Positions 3,121-49,578 of a stretch of DNA of 64,000 nucleotides are shown here, piece by piece. The position numbers were made by a program, and so were the translations under genes. The DNA is from Psychroserpens mesophilus (GTDB taxonomy: Bacteria; Bacteroidota; Bacteroidia; Flavobacteriales; Flavobacteriaceae). The DNA lies in assembly GCF_000826645.1 (NCBI RefSeq), contig NZ_JXJP01000020.1, forward strand, positions 186,001-250,000. The letters run 5' to 3'. Under the pieces are notes generated by a model. The model saw nothing but the letters and a program-made list of their open reading frames with translations. It had not been told where the DNA came from and searched no databases. Positions within the stretch are counted from its first letter, which is position 1; each line of letters begins with the position of its first letter.

Positions 3121-3816
3121 TTAAATATTATTTAAAGCGTCAACAAGTTGGGTTTTCTTATTTCTACTAAGCGGAATCTCATAGGCGCCAACTTCAACGT
3201 TTTTGCTATTAAATCGATCAACTTTGTCAAGGTTAACGATATAGGATTTATGGATTCTTAAAAATTTACCTTCCGGTAACTCGTGTTCAAATGCTTTCAT
3301 TGTAGATAAAACGACTAAGCTATTTTCTTCAGTAACTAATTTTACATAATCACCAAGAGCTTCAATCCATTTAATATCTTTAATGTACACTTTTCGTTTT
3401 TTCAGGTTACTTTTTACGAAGATGTGTTCTCCGTCAGTTTCATTGAAATCAAGCTTTAGTTTATGTTGTTCAAGCGCTTTTTCTACAGAAGTATTAAATC
3501 GTTCCCTAGTGATAGGTTTTTGTAGATAATCGGTTGCATCATAATTAAAAGCTTTAAATGCGTATTCAGTTTTACCTGTAACGAAAATAATTTGGGGTTT
3601 GTTGTTGAGTACGTCAAGCAGTTCGAAACCGTTAAGAACAGGCATTTCAATATCTAGGAAGATTAAATCTACCTTGTGAGTATTGAGTCCGTTTTTGGTC
3701 TCTAATGCACTACTGTATTCTGCAATAAGGTTAAGTGAGGAATGATTCTCAATTAACTTTACAATCGATAATCGTTGAATCGCAGAATCATCAACTACTA
3801 CACAGTTTAAAGTCAT
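3121..3816 (-). CDS. LytTR-family response regulator
   Basis: Two-component response regulator of the AlgR/LytR type, 231 residues from the ATG at 3816; a longer reading to 3885 would add residues with no family match. Residues 1-120 form a receiver domain with acidic pair D9-D10, phospho-acceptor D55 in LIFLDIEMP, T80 and K100 (YLQKP). Residues about 135-230 form a LytTR DNA-binding domain (FVKSNLKKRKVYIKDIKWIE, then FLRIHKSYIVNLDKV and IPLSRNKK). No histidine kinase gene is adjacent, so its partner is encoded elsewhere. LytTR proteins bind pairs of direct repeats about two helical turns apart; such a pair occurs near 15.9 and 18.5 kb, but linking the two is speculation. Confidence 0.92.
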   Translation of the reverse strand: MTLNCVVVDDSAIQRLSIVKLIENHSSLNLIAEYSSALETKNGLNTHKVDLIFLDIEMPVLNGFELLDVLNNKPQIIFVTGKTEYAFKAFNYDATDYLQKPITRERFNTSVEKALEQHKLKLDFNETDGEHIFVKSNLKKRKVYIKDIKWIEALGDYVKLVTEENSLVVLSTMKAFEHELPEGKFLRIHKSYIVNLDKVDRFNSKNVEVGAYEIPLSRNKKTQLVDALNNI

Positions 3817-8801: not shown

Positions 8802-11800
8802 TTATTTTACTAAAACTTTCTTGGATACTGAACCGCTTACAGTATTTATTTTTACAATATAAGTTCCAGAACTTAAATCCTTAACTTCATATTCAGAATA
8901 GTCCAGTTCTGAAATATCTTTTATAGTGTGAATCGATTGTCCAACAATATTGAATAATTCGATAGACTTCACTTCATTATAATTAGGGTTTAGTAACACT
9001 AAACTTTCGGTTTCGTTTGAATAGTACACTGTTATACTGCTTAATTCATTATCATCAATACTTAAGGTATCATCTGCTTCTCTGAAGGTCATTTCAAATC
9101 GGTTTAAATGCTCACCAGCAGGAAGATAAATTTCATAATCACTTTCTCTTAAATTGTGATAAATGTTATTTTCGATATCGTGAATGAAAATATCCATACT
9201 ATCAGGTACATTCTCCAGAGCATTGATGCTAATAGTGTTTAATCCATCAGAATCCGTTGTAATACCTAAAGGATACGTTGTATCAATTTCAACATCATTA
9301 CTACCTTGAATGATGTATTTTTCACCATCAATCATCCAATACATGTCATCCATTTGGGTTTCATTCATAATCCCATCATAACCAAGATCAACAGCTGTAG
9401 TGGCATTTGGATCGATAGTTAATAATAATTGACGTTGTATAGTATTTACAGAATAAATACCAATTCTAAATTTCATTCTTGGATCCCCTTCAGTAGATTC
9501 AGTTTGATAATCGTTAGAAGCAGCTTCACTATTTCTAATAAAGACAGAACTTCCACTTAATGAACCATCTTCTTTACGAAATATACGTTGATCATTTTCA
9601 AAAAGAATTGGACCACCAGCATCTGCCACTACGAAGAAACCTTGACTTACAGGAATAAATCTTCCAGGTGTTTTTCTTGCGCTACCAGTGTTGCTAATAT
9701 AAGCCACTGGAACACCTAATGTTACTGAAGGCGTTCCTCCAGATAAATTCATTAAGGCATAACCACCTTGGTAATCTGCCAAGATATGATTTCCTCCGCC
9801 CCAATGTTCCCAGAAATATAGTGTTCCTGTTGTAGTGCCAAGGTTGTCATTAATAAATTCTACAGCATCAATAGCTGAAGCATAAGGGTTTCCAACCAGG
9901 TAGTTGTTACCTGGATTCAAGTTTAGTTCAATATCACCATTATTTGGTTTACCTCTAAAGATGTAGTTTTGATCATCAGTTAATGAACCAGAACCTGGAC
10001 CCTTCATTGTAAATCCTTCACCAGCTAAAATATTACCAGTACTTCTTGTGTGTTGCCATGCTGAATAATCACCATCGGCAAGATTTGCAAACTTCCATAC
10101 CCAGTAATCTGCGATACGTAAAGGAGATGCTGAACCATCATATCCACTTGTCAGGAATCCAACATTTGTTAATACATCGGTTAGATTATATCTAAACTCA
10201 TTGGTTTCTAGATCGTCTATTCGTCCTACAGGAGAAGACCAGTAATTGTATGTAAAAGTATCAGCCGTACCTTGTTGATCACGCTCTAATCGTCCTGTTC
10301 CAGCAACAACCAAGTCGCTGTTTTCAGTTTGAATTAATTGTGATTCACCTTCAAGATCAATGGTTCCAGTGAGTGCTAAATAATGAGATACTGTAAGTCC
10401 GTAACCTGTATTTGTTGATGTATTCGTGATGCCACTAACCTCTAACTCATTGCTTTCCACCATTAACCCAAGAACGGTTCTGTTTCCATTATTACCAGCA
10501 GGTAAATCTGAATCATCGTCAATCGTTACATTGTGATTTGTTCTAATTATATTCCAATCAACAGTTTGATTCACATCAACTATAGATGTTGTACCTGGAA
10601 TAGTTTGAATATTTCCATTTTGCCAAGTGCTTCGTGTGTCCCAGTTTCCATTTTGAGTTGAAACGTAAGGTAAAGGAGCAGTTTGTCTATCGACAGTATT
10701 TAAATTTCTTAAAGCACCTTGATTACCTTTACCTGAGGCATCCTCTGTGTTGGTATAAGTATAAACCGACATTGGATAATAACCTGCCAATTCAGACCAA
10801 GGAATGGTTTCAACATCATTTTTAGATATGTTAGTAGGTAGTACGCTACCAGTAACAAAGGTATCGTCACTTTCAATTTCCTGATTCATGATGAATCGTA
10901 ATTGTTCAGGAGTTAAGGCTCTATTCCAAACTCTTACTTCATCAATATTACCTTCAAAATGGTTTACAGGTGTGCTTTTTCCAGCAGCAGCAATATAGAA
11001 AGATTCGTTAGTATCTACAGGAGGTGTTCTACTTTCAGAATTATCACCAATGCCATCAATAAATAATTTTATAAAGGTTCCATCGTAGATAGCAGCTACA
11101 TGATGCCATTCATTTTCTGGTATTTCAATGGTACTAACAACAGTCTGTGTTGAACCATTTTTCCAAGACAACTCTAATCGCCTGTCACTTCTTATTTTAA
11201 AATCATATCCTTGCGTATATGCAGCATCTCGTTTTGAAATGATCGAACAATTTGTATTGTCTCTTTTAATCCAAGCTGAAATGGTAAAACCAGCAGGATC
11301 TAAATCTAAAGCGTCTTCCATGTCGACGTAGTCAACAGCTCCATCAAAATAAATTGAACGTTCAACAATAACCTGTGGTGCATATCCAAACGTGATATAC
11401 GTTGTATTATCAAAATCGTAATCCGTTTCAAGGTTACCATTGCCATCAGATTTCATTACTCTATAATCAGCAGTTGGGTCAAAGACACCAGTACTTGATA
11501 TGAACATGTAATAACTACCTGGAGGGTTAATATTTCTTATAGCATTTTGAGGAATTCTTACTCTAACAGAAGGAATATCTCCTCCGTTTTCAACGACTTT
11601 CCAAACACGTTGCATAGCAGTGAAACTTACATCTGTATTTAAAGCAGGCGTAATGCCAGCACTCATATTGACAGAAATTGTAGAAGAAGCAAGATTTAAA
11701 TCAGCTCCATTATTTCCCCACATTAAGAACTCTTTGTCGTTAAAAGACGTTGGGTTTGATGATTGATTTAACTTGTTAGTATCGTAGATTTCTGTAAGAC

Positions 11801-14800
11801 CAAAAGTTAAAACTCCTTCAGTTCTACCACCTCCATCAGAAGCATTATTTACACTTCTTGATTGTTTTTGATTAAGTTCTGAAGCATCATCTCTACCAAT
11901 TCCGGCAATATCATAATTATATCCTGAGTTGGCTGATTGATCCCAGATAACTGTACCATCACTATCAACATAATCTTGAGAAGTGCCATTAACGCCTAAT
12001 GTTATTCCATATTTAACTCCTAAATACGATTGGATTCTATTGCGTTCTTGAGTTAAATTCACGTCATCTTTTCTTGATGAGTAGGTAATAACTTCAGCAA
12101 CCCTAGCATTTAATGTAGCTTCCCAGCCTTCCGAACGGCCAATCCACCATCTTGAATCATCCGTATTTAGATATTCTGCGATATCATTTTGTGTATTTCC
12201 AATATTATTAGCGTTATAAAATAATTCTTGTTGTGTGTCTGCACTATTATTTCTAGTATTTATAATTCCGACGTTGTCATAACTTGAGCCTGTTCCAATT
12301 TCTGCAACAGCATAACCGTCTGCAGGTGTTTGGCCTTGGGTGTACGAGTCATGTGCGTAACAAATAATTTCACCACTAACTCGACCAGTATAGTCACCAA
12401 AACCAATACCAGTTGCGTCTGTTGCTGCTGTATCTAAATGCGCATCACTACAAAATACATCCATGTATCCAAAAGAGTTGTTTATAGGAGTGTCATCTGG
12501 TATTAATACAATAAAGACATCTTGTGTGTAAAAACCGTAGTCGCCTGATAGGAACTCTGTAGAGGTACTATCATGAGAATAATCAGAATCTAATCCAAAT
12601 GATGTAAAGGTATTGTCAAATTCTATGACAGGATTAAAGTTGATATTTTTAGTCACATTGTCAAAATACGTAGGTGCCTGACTAGCGTTAACTACTCGAG
12701 CATTACTACCTAGACCTTGATCAATCCACGACGTTACATTTTGTCCGCTAGTATAAGTTAATCCGTCATCGGCTTTCAACCAAAGTGCTAAATCAGCTGT
12801 AACACCACCTGGAGCAACTATAGGTGTGGGTTTATCTTCTACAGTAACATGATCTATAGCCATGTCACTATAAACATTACCATTAATTTCACCTTTTATT
12901 CTAATTTTAACTGTTTGTCCAACATATGGCGTTAAATCAAAAGTTACTGGAATAAATGATGAGTTAATATTATTTTGAGTTTCACCTGATTTAGTGAAAA
13001 CTATATTTGGATAAGTTAAACCATTATCAGTACTTAATTCGACTGATAAATCTCCCATTCCACTGCCAAACATATGATAGAAGAACGTAATTCTTGGGTT
13101 TGTTGCGCTTGTTAAATCAAAACATGGGCTAAAAAGAATGGCATCATCATTGGTGTTACCGTTTGATTCCGTAAAGATATAGGAATTACCATCTTGAGCT
13201 TCATTAGGACCTGTAAAAGCAGTAGGAGTACTTCCACTTGTTCTTGACCAGTTAAAGTCATCTTCCAATATGTTTATACCTTGCGTCCAAAGACCAAAGC
13301 CAGATTCGAAACTTTCAGAGTAAGGGTAGGTAGATACTGTTGAAAAACAAACTCCTGCAGCAGTACCAGTACCTTCAACATTGAAGTTATATGGATTTTC
13401 GTCACTATCATCATTAACAATACTAACAGAGGCTGTTCTTGTTCCTGTACCACTTGGATCAAAAGTAATTTGAAATGTTGTTGTACCTCCAGAAGACACC
13501 GTTGCAGCTGGGCTACTAGTAACTGTAAAATCACCAGCGTTAGCACCTGAGATGGTAATACTTCCGATATTTAAAACACCTGTACCAGTATTTTCGATAG
13601 TAAATGTATTTGGATTAGTAGCTCCAACTACAGTTACTGAACCAAAATCGGTATCATCTGCGACATCTGGGGTTGTATCTCCATCTGCTATTGAAACAGC
13701 ATTACCGATGACATCCATTTCTGGACTTGGTGCGATTCCATTACCTCTAATATTAAAGTTATAAGGGTTTTCGTCACTATCACCATTTACGATGCTTACT
13801 GACGCAGTTCTAAGTCCGTTAGCACTTGGATTAAATGTGATATCAAATGCAGTATTTCCTAAAGACGCTACAGATGCTGAAGGGCCAGACGTCACAGTAA
13901 AGTCACCTGCATGAGCACCAGAAATGGTAATGGCACCTACAGATAATGTTGCTGTTCCTGTATTTTGAATTGTAAATGTGTTTGTGTCTGTTCCTGAAGC
14001 TGTATCAACATCACCAAAATCAGTATCATCAGCTAAACTAGGTGTTATATCTCCATCAGAAATAGAAGTACCAAGACCAGTAATATCTATTTCAGGCACT
14101 GGTGGTCCAGTTACAGCAGTTAACTCAATATCATCAATAGCCATGTCACTTCTATAGTCACCACTAGTTTCCCCTCGGAACCTTAACATGATCGTTTGAC
14201 CGACGTAAGCATTCAAATTGATATTAACGGCTTCCCAAGCGTCATAATAACTTGTTTGAACCTGACCTGATTCCGACCAAATTGGAGCAGACCAAGACCC
14301 ACCATTGTCATTACTTATTTCAACAAATAAATCTCCCATAAAAAACCCATACATGTGGTAGTAGAATGTAAAATTAGCGGAAGATGCTGAGGTTAAATTG
14401 AAACATGGACTTATTAAAATAGCGGTACTATTTGCGTTTCCCGTTGCTTCTGTATATAAATAATCGACTCCTTCATTAGCAACAGAAGGTCCAGTCCAAT
14501 TTGAAGGAGTAAAACCTGTATCAAAAGACCAGTCCATGTCATCAGTTGCATCCTGGGACCATAAGCCTAATCCTGATTCAAATCCTTCAGAATATGGAAA
14601 AACACTTACAGTAGAAGCGCAACTTGCTGTTCCTGAGGTTAATCCAGATAAGTCAACAATTTGAATTTCATGATTCATTGTATTACCACTTCTATGTGAC
14701 CAATGTGCTGCTTCAGAAATTGAATTTAAATAGTAATTTCTCCAACCTCTAGCATATGCCGTACCACCTCCACTAGTAGTAGAACTACCAATAATTAAGG

Positions 14801-15830
14801 CTTCGTTTATATCAGATAATCCAGCAGATGATATGTTAATTGCTGTTTCTCCAGCCGAGTTACCAGTATCTTGATACCTTGTGACATTTAAATTTGGGTT
14901 TGATAAAACGTGCACGAATTGTCTGTTATTACCATTTGAATCATGATCCGAATGAAAAGTCCAGTCAACACGCTGGTCATTTGAACCAGGTTCAGCTAGA
15001 GGCCAGTTATCGGCAATAGCTTCATTTGTTCCATTTTGATTATTATCAGCTCTATGTTGTGTGAAAATTACGGCTTCATTCCAATCGGTAACACTAGCTG
15101 TAGTTCCAGTACCATCAGAATCATTTGTTAAAGTAATAGTCCCAGAATCTGCACTCGTATTTCCAGAGTCACCATGTAAAACTGTCCAGTTACTACCAGT
15201 AAATTCAACAACAGTAACATATACAACTACATTGTTTGCATTGGTTCCTTTTTGAACTCTCAAACTTGTAGCACTTTCTAAGTAAGCTATTGCTGTACCA
15301 GAATCTGCTCCAGCAGAAGAAGCATTGGTACTTATACCAGTTATGAAAGGAATACATTTATTAGCATTCGTTATTCCACTGAGAGTCGTTGTTGTACTAT
15401 TAGTTCCTCCATTAAGTGTAACTACATATCTGCCTCTAACGATCATTTCATTATCACCAGCAGAAGGACCTACATATTCCCAGATTGAGGTGTTAAATCT
15501 CATATCGGCAGAATTAGATCCAGATTCTCTATAATATTGTAATGTGTTTGTAGTCGTCAGAGCTCTTGCACCAGCTAAATCATCGGCATTAAGTGTGCCA
15601 CCTGACGAGTCTGGTCCAGCGTTAGACTTTCTATTACTGTTTGCTAAAGCCACAGCATTACTCAAAGAACTAACAGCTGTAAAACCTGTGTTGGTCCCTC
15701 CAGAGTTCCCAATATCATCTTGCAAATGTTGAACTTTGAAATCGGCAGTTTGAGCTAACATCAAACTTGATAAAAAAAGCATACCTAATAACAGGATATA
15801 CTTTCTTAGCGAAAGTGTAGAAATTTTCAT
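8802..15830 (-). CDS. Giant multidomain secreted protein with LamG-type domains and T9SS sorting signal
   Basis: 2342 residues. A signal peptide (about 1-26, ending LMLAQ) is followed by a Ser/Thr/Asn-rich region to about 400. A MAM-like beta domain (about 405-573, FPYSEGFESGLGLW to DMAIDDIEL) comes next. Then come two tandem choice-of-anchor-D repeats (about 577-697 and 700-820, each with DDTDFG...TFTIQNTGT...NPYNFN). A second MAM-like domain (about 827-990), a concanavalin-like region starting LALWLKADDG (about 1010-1260), a LamG domain (about 1490-1645) and a long beta-rich C-terminal part follow. The last 75 residues form a type A T9SS sorting domain ending in Lys. It is expected at the cell surface or outside; such proteins act in adhesion or glycan binding. 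The domain order is read from sequence, the ligand is unknown. Confidence 0.9.
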   Translation of the reverse strand: MKISTLSLRKYILLLGMLFLSSLMLAQTADFKVQHLQDDIGNSGGTNTGFTAVSSLSNAVALANSNRKSNAGPDSSGGTLNADDLAGARALTTTNTLQYYRESGSNSADMRFNTSIWEYVGPSAGDNEMIVRGRYVVTLNGGTNSTTTTLSGITNANKCIPFITGISTNASSAGADSGTAIAYLESATSLRVQKGTNANNVVVYVTVVEFTGSNWTVLHGDSGNTSADSGTITLTNDSDGTGTTASVTDWNEAVIFTQHRADNNQNGTNEAIADNWPLAEPGSNDQRVDWTFHSDHDSNGNNRQFVHVLSNPNLNVTRYQDTGNSAGETAINISSAGLSDINEALIIGSSTTSGGGTAYARGWRNYYLNSISEAAHWSHRSGNTMNHEIQIVDLSGLTSGTASCASTVSVFPYSEGFESGLGLWSQDATDDMDWSFDTGFTPSNWTGPSVANEGVDYLYTEATGNANSTAILISPCFNLTSASSANFTFYYHMYGFFMGDLFVEISNDNGGSWSAPIWSESGQVQTSYYDAWEAVNINLNAYVGQTIMLRFRGETSGDYRSDMAIDDIELTAVTGPPVPEIDITGLGTSISDGDITPSLADDTDFGDVDTASGTDTNTFTIQNTGTATLSVGAITISGAHAGDFTVTSGPSASVASLGNTAFDITFNPSANGLRTASVSIVNGDSDENPYNFNIRGNGIAPSPEMDVIGNAVSIADGDTTPDVADDTDFGSVTVVGATNPNTFTIENTGTGVLNIGSITISGANAGDFTVTSSPAATVSSGGTTTFQITFDPSGTGTRTASVSIVNDDSDENPYNFNVEGTGTAAGVCFSTVSTYPYSESFESGFGLWTQGINILEDDFNWSRTSGSTPTAFTGPNEAQDGNSYIFTESNGNTNDDAILFSPCFDLTSATNPRITFFYHMFGSGMGDLSVELSTDNGLTYPNIVFTKSGETQNNINSSFIPVTFDLTPYVGQTVKIRIKGEINGNVYSDMAIDHVTVEDKPTPIVAPGGVTADLALWLKADDGLTYTSGQNVTSWIDQGLGSNARVVNASQAPTYFDNVTKNINFNPVIEFDNTFTSFGLDSDYSHDSTSTEFLSGDYGFYTQDVFIVLIPDDTPINNSFGYMDVFCSDAHLDTAATDATGIGFGDYTGRVSGEIICYAHDSYTQGQTPADGYAVAEIGTGSSYDNVGIINTRNNSADTQQELFYNANNIGNTQNDIAEYLNTDDSRWWIGRSEGWEATLNARVAEVITYSSRKDDVNLTQERNRIQSYLGVKYGITLGVNGTSQDYVDSDGTVIWDQSANSGYNYDIAGIGRDDASELNQKQSRSVNNASDGGGRTEGVLTFGLTEIYDTNKLNQSSNPTSFNDKEFLMWGNNGADLNLASSTISVNMSAGITPALNTDVSFTAMQRVWKVVENGGDIPSVRVRIPQNAIRNINPPGSYYMFISSTGVFDPTADYRVMKSDGNGNLETDYDFDNTTYITFGYAPQVIVERSIYFDGAVDYVDMEDALDLDPAGFTISAWIKRDNTNCSIISKRDAAYTQGYDFKIRSDRRLELSWKNGSTQTVVSTIEIPENEWHHVAAIYDGTFIKLFIDGIGDNSESRTPPVDTNESFYIAAAGKSTPVNHFEGNIDEVRVWNRALTPEQLRFIMNQEIESDDTFVTGSVLPTNISKNDVETIPWSELAGYYPMSVYTYTNTEDASGKGNQGALRNLNTVDRQTAPLPYVSTQNGNWDTRSTWQNGNIQTIPGTTSIVDVNQTVDWNIIRTNHNVTIDDDSDLPAGNNGNRTVLGLMVESNELEVSGITNTSTNTGYGLTVSHYLALTGTIDLEGESQLIQTENSDLVVAGTGRLERDQQGTADTFTYNYWSSPVGRIDDLETNEFRYNLTDVLTNVGFLTSGYDGSASPLRIADYWVWKFANLADGDYSAWQHTRSTGNILAGEGFTMKGPGSGSLTDDQNYIFRGKPNNGDIELNLNPGNNYLVGNPYASAIDAVEFINDNLGTTTGTLYFWEHWGGGNHILADYQGGYALMNLSGGTPSVTLGVPVAYISNTGSARKTPGRFIPVSQGFFVVADAGGPILFENDQRIFRKEDGSLSGSSVFIRNSEAASNDYQTESTEGDPRMKFRIGIYSVNTIQRQLLLTIDPNATTAVDLGYDGIMNETQMDDMYWMIDGEKYIIQGSNDVEIDTTYPLGITTDSDGLNTISINALENVPDSMDIFIHDIENNIYHNLRESDYEIYLPAGEHLNRFEMTFREADDTLSIDDNELSSITVYYSNETESLVLLNPNYNEVKSIELFNIVGQSIHTIKDISELDYSEYEVKDLSSGTYIVKINTVSGSVSKKVLVK

Positions 15831-15872: not shown

Positions 15873-15903
15873 CAAATATAATGCAGTACTCTATGAAATG
15901 CAA
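15873..15903 (-). promoter_or_regulatory. Promoter of the giant secreted protein gene
   Basis: Read on the minus strand: TTG (15903-15901), 20-nt spacer, TATATTTG (15880-15873), about 43 nt before the start codon. A second TATATTTG box (15908-15901) overlaps the TTG and could be a separate promoter. Confidence 0.75.
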
Positions 15904-15923
15904 ATATATTCGACGAAATGCAT
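15891..15923. repeat. 33-bp shared upstream element, copy 1
   Basis: This stretch matches 18471-18503 at 26 of 33 positions without gaps. Inside it, the 10-mers ATGAAATGCA (15893-15902) and ACGAAATGCA (15913-15922) form a direct repeat with a 20-bp period. It starts 60 nt upstream of the giant gene's start codon; copy 2 starts 68 nt upstream of the carboxypeptidase gene. Confidence 0.65.
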
Positions 15924-15954
15924 GTTAATATTTTAATATATTGATAATCAGTAA

Positions 15955-15990
15955 ATTAAAAAAGCTGAAATTAATTTCAGCTTTTTTAAT
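15955..15990 (-). terminator. Terminator of the M14 carboxypeptidase gene
   Basis: A perfect 36-bp palindrome; the core AAGCTGAAATT pairs with AATTTCAGCTT and is bordered by runs of A and T on both sides. It follows the carboxypeptidase stop codon (16006) on the minus strand. Confidence 0.85.
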
Positions 15991-16005
15991 TGTTATACCG
16001 GATTT

Positions 16006-18402
16006 TTATTCCTTTATGATCTGTTTAATAGAAGAGTTACCTGATTCATTTTCAGTGATTTTTAGGAAATAAGAGCCTTTCGAAATATGTTGTGTGTTTT
16101 CTAATTTGAATTGGCTATTGTTCAACTTTACATGTGACATATTCAATATAGATCTACCACTAATATCGTATAATTCGATGTCTATACTTGAGTTACCAGA
16201 TTGGTATGGTAATTTTATGGTAATAGAATTATTAAATGGATTTGGAAAAATTCTAATATCTTCTATGCTATTGTCTTCAATACTAAGAGTATCTTCAACT
16301 GTAACCACGACTTCTTTTCTTCCACTCTTAATATCTTCAAGATTCCAATCATAAAAGAAGTAGTAATAATCTAAATTGTTGATGTTATTTCCTTTAATAG
16401 TAACTGCTCCATTCGTATAAGGATAACTTGTTCCTGCACTAGTATTGTTTCTAAAAAGGGTAAATCCTGAAGACATTTCAGCACTTGCAAGCCTTAAATT
16501 ATTCCCAACAGGGATTAAAAAATTCAATTCAATTTGTTGTAAGCCTGAAGATTCAACTAAAATAAGTCTTGAATCTAACATGTTACCAGAGGCGTCCTGT
16601 AATTGTACTTCCATTTCACCAGCTTGTCCAGCATTGATTGTTACTTCTTTTAACATGACTGATTCGGCTGAATCAAAAATTAAATAACGATCTGTGGCTC
16701 CACCTGCAAAGTAGCCACCATTTGAAGAGTGATTTGTTGAACCAACATTACTTTTTGTGATGACATCTTCAATAAAATATGATGTCGTTGTAGTTAAGTT
16801 AGGCGTGTTATAACTGTTGCCAGTAGCAATAGGAGACTCATCATCGATGTTTTGGTACCAGTTAATTATTCCAGAACCCGTTGCCGTTAAAACAGTACTT
16901 TCATTGGTATTAATGGTTACATCATTACTTAAAGGTTGTGCAGTAGTAGCAACCATAGTTACATTCTGAATGGTTTGAGTGTTATCAGTAATGGTCACAT
17001 TAATGGTTTGTGTTGCGTAACCAGGTGCTTCATAAGTTACATTATAACTACCACCTTTAAGTAATCTATAATAATCTCCTAAATCTTCGTTTGAAAACAC
17101 ATGAGAATTTAAAGCATCGTGGCCAGCAATTGATATTTTCGCCACTACGGGATTTCCAGATTCATCAGAAACTATACCTTGTAAACCATAATTTACTTGT
17201 TTCATATAATCTAGTAATGCTTGTCTATTATAGGTCCAGTGATTATTAATAGCATTGCCTTGAATCCATTTTGTATCAGATAACTCTACAACGACTTCTC
17301 TTCCGCCTCTATAAAAATTCATATAGTCTTGGCGACCTCCATACACACGATACCATTCTGCACCATGTGTCACACCTGGACTTGGATATACGTCTGAATC
17401 TTCATCAACCATCATATAGCCAGATGGACTGTTGTTTTGAGCATGTGTAGCATACTCAACTGAAATATATTCGAACCAATCATGATCTGCATGCTGATCG
17501 TAAGTATTGTCATAAGGATAATTAACTAATTCTGTACCTCCATGAAAATTTGCAGATAACACAATATTATGGGCTTCTTCAAATTTCATAAATGCTAGTG
17601 TTTCAACTTCGTAAATACCACTATCGTGAAGACCAGCAACATTATCGGCATAATTTCTATTTAAATCTTGTCCGTTAGCATTTGCTCTTATCGGATTTGT
17701 AATGGTGTTGTTTCCGGCATTTCTGTAAGTTCCATCAGGATTTGCTAATGGATTGATGTAAATAACTGTATTATTTACAATGCCATTTACTTCTGCATCT
17801 GAGCCATAATTTGTTAAGAGATACTCTGCAAGTCTTATCATCAAAGGAAAACCAGCTAATTCATCACCATGCATTGATGAGGTGTACATAAATTCTGGTT
17901 CAGCCTCATTAGTAGAAACGTTATCAGATATTTTTAGCATTAATAATTCTCTTCCATTATTCGTGGTTCCTATAGATTCAAGCGAACAAAGGTTTGGATA
18001 AGTTGTAGCAAAATAATTCATTTTAGCTACATATTGAGTGTAAGTAGGATAAGCGTTCCAATCTACATCCCAAGCTTGCGTATCTTCAGTAGAATTTAAA
18101 ATAGGTATAAATTCATTTTCACTTGAATTGACTTCAAACGGCAGTCCGTAAGTTAAAAATTGTTGAAATGTTTCAGCATTTGCAAAAGCTTCAACCTCTA
18201 AGGTTTCATGGTTTACATTGTGACCAATTGATAGAAATTGTGCTATTTCTTGTACTTGTTGTTCACTGTTAGCAGTAAATACAAAGCAAACTTCGCCTCT
18301 GCTTTCGATATAGCTTTGTGCTTTTTGTAAATCGGTAGTTTGAGCATGTACACTTATAAACATAAGTAGTAACAGTACATGTAAGAATGTAATTTTGCGC
18401 AT
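16006..18402 (-). CDS. Secreted zinc carboxypeptidase, M14 family, with T9SS sorting domain
   Basis: 798 residues. A signal peptide (1-20, ending SVHAQ) and a pro-region to about 110 precede the M14 metallopeptidase domain. Zinc ligands are H178 and E181 in MHGDELAG and H287 in NFHGGTE; the catalytic Glu is E373 in EVVVELSD. The substrate-loop segment NPDGTYRNAGNN and NGQDLNRNYAD are also present. A transthyretin-like CarboxypepD regulatory domain follows (about 405-475, LQGIVSDESGNPV), then beta-rich modules, and a C-terminal T9SS type A domain (from IRIFPNPFNN, about the last 85 residues). It probably removes C-terminal residues from extracellular peptides. Upstream it carries copy 2 of the 33-bp element shared with its neighbour. 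Confidence 0.93.
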   Translation of the reverse strand: MRKITFLHVLLLLMFISVHAQTTDLQKAQSYIESRGEVCFVFTANSEQQVQEIAQFLSIGHNVNHETLEVEAFANAETFQQFLTYGLPFEVNSSENEFIPILNSTEDTQAWDVDWNAYPTYTQYVAKMNYFATTYPNLCSLESIGTTNNGRELLMLKISDNVSTNEAEPEFMYTSSMHGDELAGFPLMIRLAEYLLTNYGSDAEVNGIVNNTVIYINPLANPDGTYRNAGNNTITNPIRANANGQDLNRNYADNVAGLHDSGIYEVETLAFMKFEEAHNIVLSANFHGGTELVNYPYDNTYDQHADHDWFEYISVEYATHAQNNSPSGYMMVDEDSDVYPSPGVTHGAEWYRVYGGRQDYMNFYRGGREVVVELSDTKWIQGNAINNHWTYNRQALLDYMKQVNYGLQGIVSDESGNPVVAKISIAGHDALNSHVFSNEDLGDYYRLLKGGSYNVTYEAPGYATQTINVTITDNTQTIQNVTMVATTAQPLSNDVTINTNESTVLTATGSGIINWYQNIDDESPIATGNSYNTPNLTTTTSYFIEDVITKSNVGSTNHSSNGGYFAGGATDRYLIFDSAESVMLKEVTINAGQAGEMEVQLQDASGNMLDSRLILVESSGLQQIELNFLIPVGNNLRLASAEMSSGFTLFRNNTSAGTSYPYTNGAVTIKGNNINNLDYYYFFYDWNLEDIKSGRKEVVVTVEDTLSIEDNSIEDIRIFPNPFNNSITIKLPYQSGNSSIDIELYDISGRSILNMSHVKLNNSQFKLENTQHISKGSYFLKITENESGNSSIKQIIKE

Positions 18403-18470
18403 TAGGTTTAGGTTTAGGTAAATTTGGATTTATTATTTGGCGCTAATATATTATTTATTTCAATAAATAT

Positions 18471-18503
18471 CTATAAAATGCAAAAAAAACCGATGAAATA
18501 CAT
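18471..18503. repeat. 33-bp shared upstream element, copy 2
   Basis: Upstream of the M14 carboxypeptidase gene. It matches 15891-15923 at 26 of 33 positions, including CTAT, AAATGCAAA and GAAAT. The internal 10-mers are ATAAAATGCA (18473-18482) and ATGAAATACA (18493-18502), again 20 bp apart. Confidence 0.65.
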
Positions 18504-48207: not shown

Positions 48208-49578
48208 TTAATTTACAACCAATTTTTTAACTGTAGTTGTGTTGTTGCTAATTTCAATTTTAACAAGATATATGCCTTTACTTAAAAAAGAAATATCGAT
48301 ATTTTTATCAGACACAGAAATGTTTTGTTGTGAAAGCAACATACTTCCTTTCAAATCTGTTATAGATATTGAGTTAATAGTATTATTATCAGAATTAATG
48401 TTAAGATTATCTGAAGCAGGATTAGGAGTCATGGTCACTTTTTGTTCTTCAAATTCAGGAACTGATAAAATACTCCCTTGAACCCTGTGAATACTACCCG
48501 TAATATCTGCAATATACATTTCTTTGTCCATATCTTCTCCAAACGATACCCAAAACCCGTTATCAAAGTTTCCTTGATTTACTAGATTATTAGAAGAATC
48601 TACTGTGCCAAGTTCTCCATTTCCAGTGGTAGCAAAAATGTATACACCAAATATATCGCTGTAAACACTTCCTCTGTAAACTTGTCCACCTGCTACATTA
48701 CAAAAGCATGGAGGAATTGGGTATTCAGCGACTGGAAATGTGAGTTCTCCAGCTGAAGGACATCCAGTGGTGTTATAGGTATTTGAGCCTTCATAGCATC
48801 TCCATCCAAAGTTGTAGCCAACCGGAGTGACAGCAACTCTGTTGATTTCTTCAGTAGTATTTTGACCAACATCTCCAATCCACATTTCGTTGGTATCTGG
48901 ATCAATAGAAAATCTCCAAGGATTTCTTAAGCCATAAGCCCATATTTCATCTAAAGCATTAGGATCTCCAACAAAGGGATTGTCGGAAGGTATTGCATAG
49001 TTATTTCCGTTTTCAGCATTATCAACATCAATTCTTAATATTTTTCCTAGTAATTCCATTAAGTTCTGAGATCTGTTTCCAGGATCACCACCAGCACCAC
49101 CATCACCTGTTGAGATATAAAGATAACCATCAGCAGGACCAAAATGTAAATCGCCACCATTATGATTGCTGTATGGTTGTAGTATTGTCATTAAGATAAG
49201 TTCAGATGTTGGGTCAGCAATGTTTGCCGAGCTTCTCGTAAATCGTGAAATAACGGTATCTCCAGAATTATTAGTATAATTTACATAAAAGTAACCGTTA
49301 GATGCATAATTAGGATGAAATGCTAGTGATAGTAATCCTTGTTCGCCTCCACTAGTAATCCTTGAATCGATATCTAAAAAAGGAGTAGTATTAGTAGTGC
49401 CATCTGAATTTAAAATTTTGATAACTCCATCTTGTTCTACGATAAATAATCTGTCATCGCCAGCATTTCTAATACATAAAGGGTCTGAGAAACCATCAGC
49501 AAATAATTCTAATTGAACAACCTGGGAAAAGCTAAATGCGTAAATCATACACATTAAACATAGGGTAATTTTTTTCAT
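48208..49578 (-). CDS. PQQ-dependent sugar dehydrogenase-like secreted protein, T9SS type
   Basis: 456 residues. A signal peptide (1-18) precedes a six-bladed beta-propeller of the glucose/sorbosone dehydrogenase family: LFADGFSDPLCIRNAGDDRLFIVEQDGVIKIL, GEQGLLSLAFHPNYASNGYFYVNYTN, NHNGGDLHFGPADGYLYISTGDGGAGGDPGNRSQN, AYGLRNPWRFSIDPDTNEMWIGDVGQ. A C-terminal T9SS sorting domain follows (MTPNPASDNLNI to the final VKKLVVN). It would oxidise a sugar outside the cell using PQQ, or act as a binding propeller if PQQ is absent. It lies between the phosphatase and RsmI-like genes of the dnaA cluster. Confidence 0.92.
   Translation of the reverse strand: MKKITLCLMCMIYAFSFSQVVQLELFADGFSDPLCIRNAGDDRLFIVEQDGVIKILNSDGTTNTTPFLDIDSRITSGGEQGLLSLAFHPNYASNGYFYVNYTNNSGDTVISRFTRSSANIADPTSELILMTILQPYSNHNGGDLHFGPADGYLYISTGDGGAGGDPGNRSQNLMELLGKILRIDVDNAENGNNYAIPSDNPFVGDPNALDEIWAYGLRNPWRFSIDPDTNEMWIGDVGQNTTEEINRVAVTPVGYNFGWRCYEGSNTYNTTGCPSAGELTFPVAEYPIPPCFCNVAGGQVYRGSVYSDIFGVYIFATTGNGELGTVDSSNNLVNQGNFDNGFWVSFGEDMDKEMYIADITGSIHRVQGSILSVPEFEEQKVTMTPNPASDNLNINSDNNTINSISITDLKGSMLLSQQNISVSDKNIDISFLSKGIYLVKIEISNNTTTVKKLVVN

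Follow-up and report, generated by a model that had tools for sequence, protein, structure and literature searches.

A two-part direct-repeat element resembling LytTR sites in predicted promoters of Flavobacteriaceae genes for surface and secreted proteins

Introduction

LytTR proteins bind two direct or inverse repeats of 9–11 nt with 11–13 nt between them, and the site of YpdB (PyrR), a LytTR response regulator of E. coli, comprises two direct repeats of GGCATTTCAT, as given in the accessible portion of PMC4847170. In the PorX-PorY-SigP system, type IX secretion machinery genes are controlled through an ECF sigma factor, according to the available excerpt of PMC4800418. For the remFG-sprCDBF operon (sprB operon) of F. 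psychrophilum, the available portion of PMC9723704 describes sigma54 and SM5 promoters and a variant −7 motif; the terms 'LytTR' and 'direct repeat' are both absent from the main text of that paper. A literature search of weak, mostly open-access coverage returned no account of the element described here or of a LytTR regulator of type IX cargo.

In this study, a 64-kb stretch of DNA from Psychroserpens mesophilus (the window) was analyzed, in which two copies of a two-part element precede neighbouring genes. The element is similar to the YpdB site in that its unit, TGCATTTCAT, is identical to the YpdB unit at 9 of 10 positions and its repeats lie about two helical turns apart, measured against the site as given in the portion of PMC4847170 cited above. 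It differs in its period, being 20 instead of the 21 given there for YpdB, and its spacing, counted as 9 + 11 or 10 + 10, lies at the lower edge of or just under the LytTR range of that source. Further differences concern the candidate regulator, whose LytTR domain is 22% identical to that of YpdB, the predicted overlap of the second box with the −33 element of a Bacteroidota promoter, and the targets, which are secreted proteins here. Type IX secretion is also involved in the PorX-PorY-SigP system, and a variant of the element is located at the end of porX in the source genome; however, PorX is composed of receiver and PglZ domains without a LytTR domain, and machinery genes are the targets in the excerpt of PMC4800418, whereas cargo genes lie behind the element here. 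With F. psychrophilum, the control of an SprB adhesin operon is shared, but the promoter motifs given in the portion of PMC9723704 are different ones. Judged from sequence, we regard the element as the mark of a new regulon of a known regulator class, differing from the PorX-SigP, sigma54 and SM5 controls.

Results and Discussion

Two copies of the element in the window

In gene direction, the element consensus reads TG[CT]ATTTC[AG]TCG-N6-TTTGCATTTCAT and consists of two direct-repeat boxes with a period of 20 (Table 1). Element A reads TGCATTTCGTCG-AATATA-TTTGCATTTCAT and element B TGTATTTCATCG-GTTTTT-TTTGCATTTTAT. A sequence-only reading of the window had pointed to both copies, and its description proved accurate: positions 15891–15923 and 18471–18503 are identical at 26 of 33 bases in an ungapped comparison, their ends lie 60 and 68 nt from the ATGs at 15830 and 18402, and each contains two 10-mers 20 bp apart. 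With TG[CT]ATTTC[AG]T in both boxes, the element comprises two repeats of 9–11 nt, as LytTR sites do. Both target genes, which had been described as T9SS-secreted, do encode proteins with type A tails (LamG/MAM and M14). The hairpin located between them resembles a terminator, and the two genes are therefore probably transcribed separately.

A half-site pair search of the whole window, allowing up to three mismatches, returned elements A and B as the sole two places, in agreement with the claim that the element is absent before the third T9SS gene (48208–49578). Judged from the window alone, the element pair is within chance, 1.5 half-site-pair matches being expected and 42 of 100 shuffles reaching two.

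Table 1. Features of the element loci and the candidate regulator gene (window coordinates).
Feature	Position	Strand	Basis
Element A box 1 (TGCATTTCGTCG)	15911..15922	-	sequence comparison, genome pattern scan
Element A box 2 (TTTGCATTTCAT), includes predicted −33 TTTG	15893..15904	-	genome pattern scan, promoter scan
Element A predicted −7 box TATATTTG, TTTG 20 bp earlier	15873..15880	-	promoter scan
Element B box 1 (TGTATTTCATCG)	18491..18502	-	sequence comparison, genome pattern scan
Element B box 2 (TTTGCATTTTAT)	18473..18484	-	genome pattern scan
Element B predicted −7 box TATATTAG, TTTG 30 bp earlier; TTG absent at −33 place	18443..18450	-	promoter scan
LamG/MAM protein, 2342 aa, T9SS type A tail; target gene of element A	8802..15830	-	
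M14 carboxypeptidase, 798 aa, T9SS type A tail; target gene of element B	16006..18402	-	
Terminator-like hairpin AAAAGCTGAAATTAATTTCAGCTTTTTT, between LamG and M14 genes	15960..15987	.	read directly from sequence
Candidate regulator: receiver-LytTR response regulator, 231 aa	3121..3816	-	

Occurrence in the genome, the genus and the family

Scanning the 3.68-Mb source genome with the pattern YATTTCRTCG-N6-TTTGCATTTCAT at up to three mismatches revealed 8 sites, 7 of them with 0–1 mismatches; the reversed pattern gave 0, and a gap of 7 instead of 6 gave 2 three-mismatch matches, at other places. Within the genus, the element was detected in all 23 genomes (198 sites; reversed pattern, 6). At up to two mismatches, it was found in 87 of 199 genomes of the family, representing 198 genera (reversed pattern, 6 of 199). 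A scan for the exact element in one genome per species, covering 84,980 species, yielded 103 stretches, 80 of which were listed. Judged by title, 74 of the 80 listed stretches are of Flavobacteriaceae origin. Among the other six, four loosely labelled assemblies carry an orthologue of the LytTR regulator encoded in the window (window LytTR; 62–100% identity), and none was found in a Sphingobacterium MAG and a Chitinophagaceae MAG, both of which contain the exact element.

Genes located behind the element

The downstream survey drew on the 80 named loci as well as the source genome and another seven genomes, comprising 127 distinct sites with up to two mismatches and room on both sides. A sense ORF of at least 60 aa started within 200 bp at 95 of these sites (median distance 63 nt) and an antisense ORF at 13. 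According to a crude rule, exported-like starts were present in 79 of the 95 sense ORFs and 1 of the 13 antisense ORFs, compared to 163 of the 447 remaining ORFs of 200 aa or more from the same loci.

The motif search that the sequence-only reading had suggested excluded scattering at random, based on reversed-pattern, spacing, orientation and distance controls. A chance match was rejected by the reversed-pattern controls in the source genome, the genus and the family and by the altered-spacing control in the source genome, and a dispersed repeat by the orientation and distance bias relative to ORF starts. Although the window alone would admit it, a chance likeness or functionless dispersed repeat is left with a negligible probability by the pattern and spacing controls and by the 95 sense versus 13 antisense ORFs.

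T9SS tails were sought in the C-terminal 110 residues of every complete downstream protein of 200 aa or longer (54 proteins, in two batches). Many of these proteins are mutually orthologous. Tails were recognized in 32 of them, namely 24 of type A (21/28 and 3/26 in the two batches) and 8 of type B (5/28 and 3/26). Eleven further proteins were found by inspection to be homologous to a 442-aa protein of the source genome, which leads a gene row including a PorP/SprF protein and a giant SprB-repeat protein. The rest consisted of four LytTR regulators and seven leucine-rich-repeat, amidase-like, TPR-like or unmatched proteins. As far as sequence comparison goes, these results place the two-part element at predicted promoters of genes whose products are surface or secreted proteins, in many marine bacteria that glide.

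Of the eight sites in the source genome, two lie before the window's LamG and M14 genes and one before a second M14 gene. Four others are found ahead of a choice-of-anchor-L gene encoding a type B tail, the SprB-type row, a gene for an exported-looking protein of 157 aa and a short ORF, and the last is located at the end of porX. This genome encodes 106 type A tails, of which only 3 follow an element directly, so that just a minor part of the cargo is marked by it.

Variant sites and Flavobacterium loci

The site just behind porX (L022:6096-6123, corresponding to C23:30095-30122 of the source genome; PorX recognized by NCBIfam) is a variant of about TATTTCATCGGATTTTTTTGCATTACAT, which points antisense into the end of porX and has no −7 box. 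By alignment, it was also detected in six more genomes (L101, L113, L125, L127, L134 and L136). Another variant, AACATTTTATCGATAAAATTTGCATTTAAT, lies 9 bp before the ATG of a histidine phosphatase gene, SixA-like by eye, in two genera (L105 near 1533 and L114 near 1500), a layout that does not fit an activator site. Elements at L104, L112, L119 and L137 precede genes for small exported-looking proteins of 63–89 aa, which feature a proline run, a PPPPGLPID-like segment and then a hydrophobic stretch, and which may resemble sorting-signal peptides.

In thirteen Flavobacterium loci, what follows the exact element is either a LytTR gene or a short transcript, and not T9SS cargo. This is a point against the mechanism proposed below, as are the sigma54 and variant −7 promoter motifs of the F. 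psychrophilum sprB operon. In eight Flavobacterium genomes, the exact element precedes a different receiver-LytTR gene adjoining a glycyl-tRNA-synthetase-like gene, linking it with the LytTR family as a whole. Two of these LytTR genes were identified by Pfam and the C-termini of four by NCBIfam, while the remaining ones and the neighbouring gene were assigned by eye. At L241, L244, L272, L296 and L302, the exact element is followed by a short conserved stretch with a terminator-like hairpin at its end, flanked by purF-like and superoxide-dismutase-like genes (by eye). An Rfam search of these five loci assigned no family to the conserved stretch and found only Flavo-1, elsewhere in three of them; the stretch is possibly an unrecorded small RNA or leader.

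Promoter anatomy and two layouts

When 36 loci from the genus were stacked (3 were out of register), the boxes, an A/T-rich gap and then a conserved TAtnTTTG at a fixed distance became visible. In flavobacterial promoters, the −33 element is TTTG. The −7 box of the main sigma factor is given as TAnnTTTG, at −12 to −5, in the available portion of PMC9723704. Among 173 distinct sites from fetched loci (about 170–173 depending on the edge filter), a −7-type block, TAnnTT[TA][GC], was located 19–21 bp past the TTTG of box 2 in 92, compared to 114 of 1730 background trials at three adjacent offsets elsewhere. Because the block sits at the standard distance from this TTTG, box 2 is predicted to contain the −33 element, and in the class represented by element A it would supply the −33 TTTG of an ordinary housekeeping promoter.

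This arrangement also bears on two other readings. The conserved block might serve an alternative sigma factor (ECF, SigP-like) as its −35 region, since an ECF factor governs genes of the type IX machinery in other species (available portions of PMC4800418 and PMC9723704). That origin appears very improbable in view of the TAnnTTTG-like housekeeping −7 box at its normal place in the 92 sites, and of the block itself, which is a direct repeat with a 20-bp period and occurs at 30 and 40 bp in other sites. A LytTR-type factor could also repress by covering the −33 element, as the TTTG inside box 2 at the same 92 sites would permit; we consider this improbable, although the class of sites speaking for activation is small.

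In this second class, comprising 16 sites, the −7 block lies at 30–32 bp, about one helical turn further away; it reads TATATTAG in 14 of the 16, and TTG occurs 19–21 bp before the block in none. Element B and the site of the second M14 gene are its members in the source genome, and four Flavobacterium-type sites have their block 40 bp away. With only about twice as many sites as expected from background, the 30-bp class draws its weight from the −7 block that its members share and from the absent −33 element. A site one turn further up from a promoter without −33 favours an activator, and an activator acting on one helix face would be the simplest reading of both layouts. The −33 element inside box 2 and the separate promoter layouts of A and B had been overlooked by the sequence-only reading.

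Candidate regulator

The gene at 3121–3816 indeed encodes a LytTR regulator, with PF00072 (2.2e-19) followed by PF04397 (1.1e-18), both above cut-off; no kinase gene adjoining it was seen within the window. It is one of 16 LytTR proteins of the source genome. For the orthologue test, all 50 LytTR matches from five element-rich genomes of other genera were used; of the 66 LytTR proteins in the set, phmmer picked out 60, and 6 were added by hand. Three LytTR proteins of the source genome had a reciprocal best orthologue in every one of the five genomes: the window LytTR (94–100% identity), L055 (75–86%) and L058 (71–83%). The other LytTR proteins were dropped, as they had no reciprocal-best orthologue in at least one of the five genomes.

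Presence in the family survey was defined as E ≤ 1e-50, which includes distant relatives. On this basis, the window LytTR was detected in 84 of the 87 element-bearing genomes, L055 in 82 and L058 in 46, and L058 was rejected by this phyletic pattern. The genomes missing the window LytTR are 81, 87 and 96% complete. Among the named element-bearing genomes (50 of the 80 loci checked), it was found in 47, at 93–100% identity in 24, at 62–66% in 22 and as a partial sequence in one; the other three are MAGs, two of which contain only relatives at 37–39%. The exceptions in both sets may reflect either data gaps or true absence.

By identity, the window LytTR falls into two groups. Seventy family genomes encode the window LytTR at 86–100% identity, 54 of them with the element (mean 2.2 sites) and 16 without any element at up to two mismatches; at lower identity, the element was present in 30 of 84 genomes (mean 0.5 sites), and among 45 genomes in which the regulator was not found, it was present in 3. 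In the genomes among the matches listed with positions (42 of high and 21 of lower identity), an element was located within 40 kb of the window LytTR gene in 27 of the 42, compared to about 2.7 expected at random, and in 0 of the 21. The 16 high-identity genomes without a site, the 30 of 84 and the 0 of 21 speak against this protein as the reader of the element. The linked site precedes a T9SS-type gene in four of five genera examined and often represents, probably, one ancestral neighbourhood. Because the species share ancestry, phyletic match and linkage are not independent trials.

The window LytTR is 94–100% identical in the five genera, compared to 71–91% for the other LytTR proteins that have orthologues in four or five of them, which suggests that it is under unusual constraint. 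Segments that we take, from AgrA, to be its DNA contacts are retained for the most part, though not everywhere, in 19 distant orthologues. Searching solved structures with the protein returned receiver and LytTR homologues and nothing about the DNA site.

The sequence-only reading had related repeats of this period to LytTR regulators in general. The LytTR character gained from the genome scans, the promoter anatomy and the YpdB-like site; the period did not fit as closely, being 20 against 21 for YpdB. We consider it quite probable that the element is read by a LytTR-family factor. The reading had left a connection to the regulator of the window open. This protein emerged as the best of the 16 by phyletic pattern and linkage, subject to shared ancestry and to L055 being nearly equal, and the chance that it is the reader seems a little better than even. 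The same element and regulon could instead be served by L055 or by a DNA-binding protein of another family. The presence of L055 in 82 of the 87 genomes and all five other genera, its detection in three genomes that gave no window LytTR match (G100, G109 and G215), and the confinement of the comparison to LytTR-family proteins agree with such a reader. It is nevertheless unlikely, if less so than the readings discussed above, because five element-bearing genomes, each 99% complete and with the window LytTR, gave no L055, and the box resembles a LytTR site.

Proposed mechanism

What can be read from sequence is the element and how well it is conserved, where it lies with respect to the −7 box, which kinds of genes follow it, and the phyletic pattern. 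The model that we derive from this predicts binding, activation rather than repression, dimer geometry and the identity of the regulator. A LytTR-type response regulator, most likely the window LytTR, would activate a set of surface and secreted proteins through the element, chiefly type IX secretion cargo and, in the source genome, also the SprB-type adhesin operon. A regulator dimer would occupy both direct-repeat boxes on one helix face. At most targets, those of the element A class, box 2 would overlap the −33 element of the housekeeping promoter; at those of the element B class, the site would lie one turn upstream of a promoter without −33, and the regulator would recruit RNA polymerase. 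On balance, we favour with moderate confidence this combination of a LytTR-type activator site and a surface and secreted protein regulon, most likely read by the window LytTR.

Conclusions

Gliding, surface-living Flavobacteriaceae choose which of their roughly hundred type IX cargo proteins to make. For this choice, the analysis provides a concrete element with few targets, a prediction of how its promoters are laid out and a single named candidate as regulator; in the source genome, the targets are 3 of the 106 type A cargo genes, one type B gene and the SprB-type operon. The recognition unit closely matches the one used by a LytTR protein of E. coli, a member of a different phylum. Tentatively, and with less confidence than in the mechanism itself, a nearly invariant LytTR protein without a neighbouring kinase may command a surface regulon in a large part of the Flavobacteriaceae that comprises type IX cargo, an SprB-type operon and, by way of the site at its end, possibly porX. 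If true, this would constitute a cargo-level control layer alongside PorX-SigP and sigma54.
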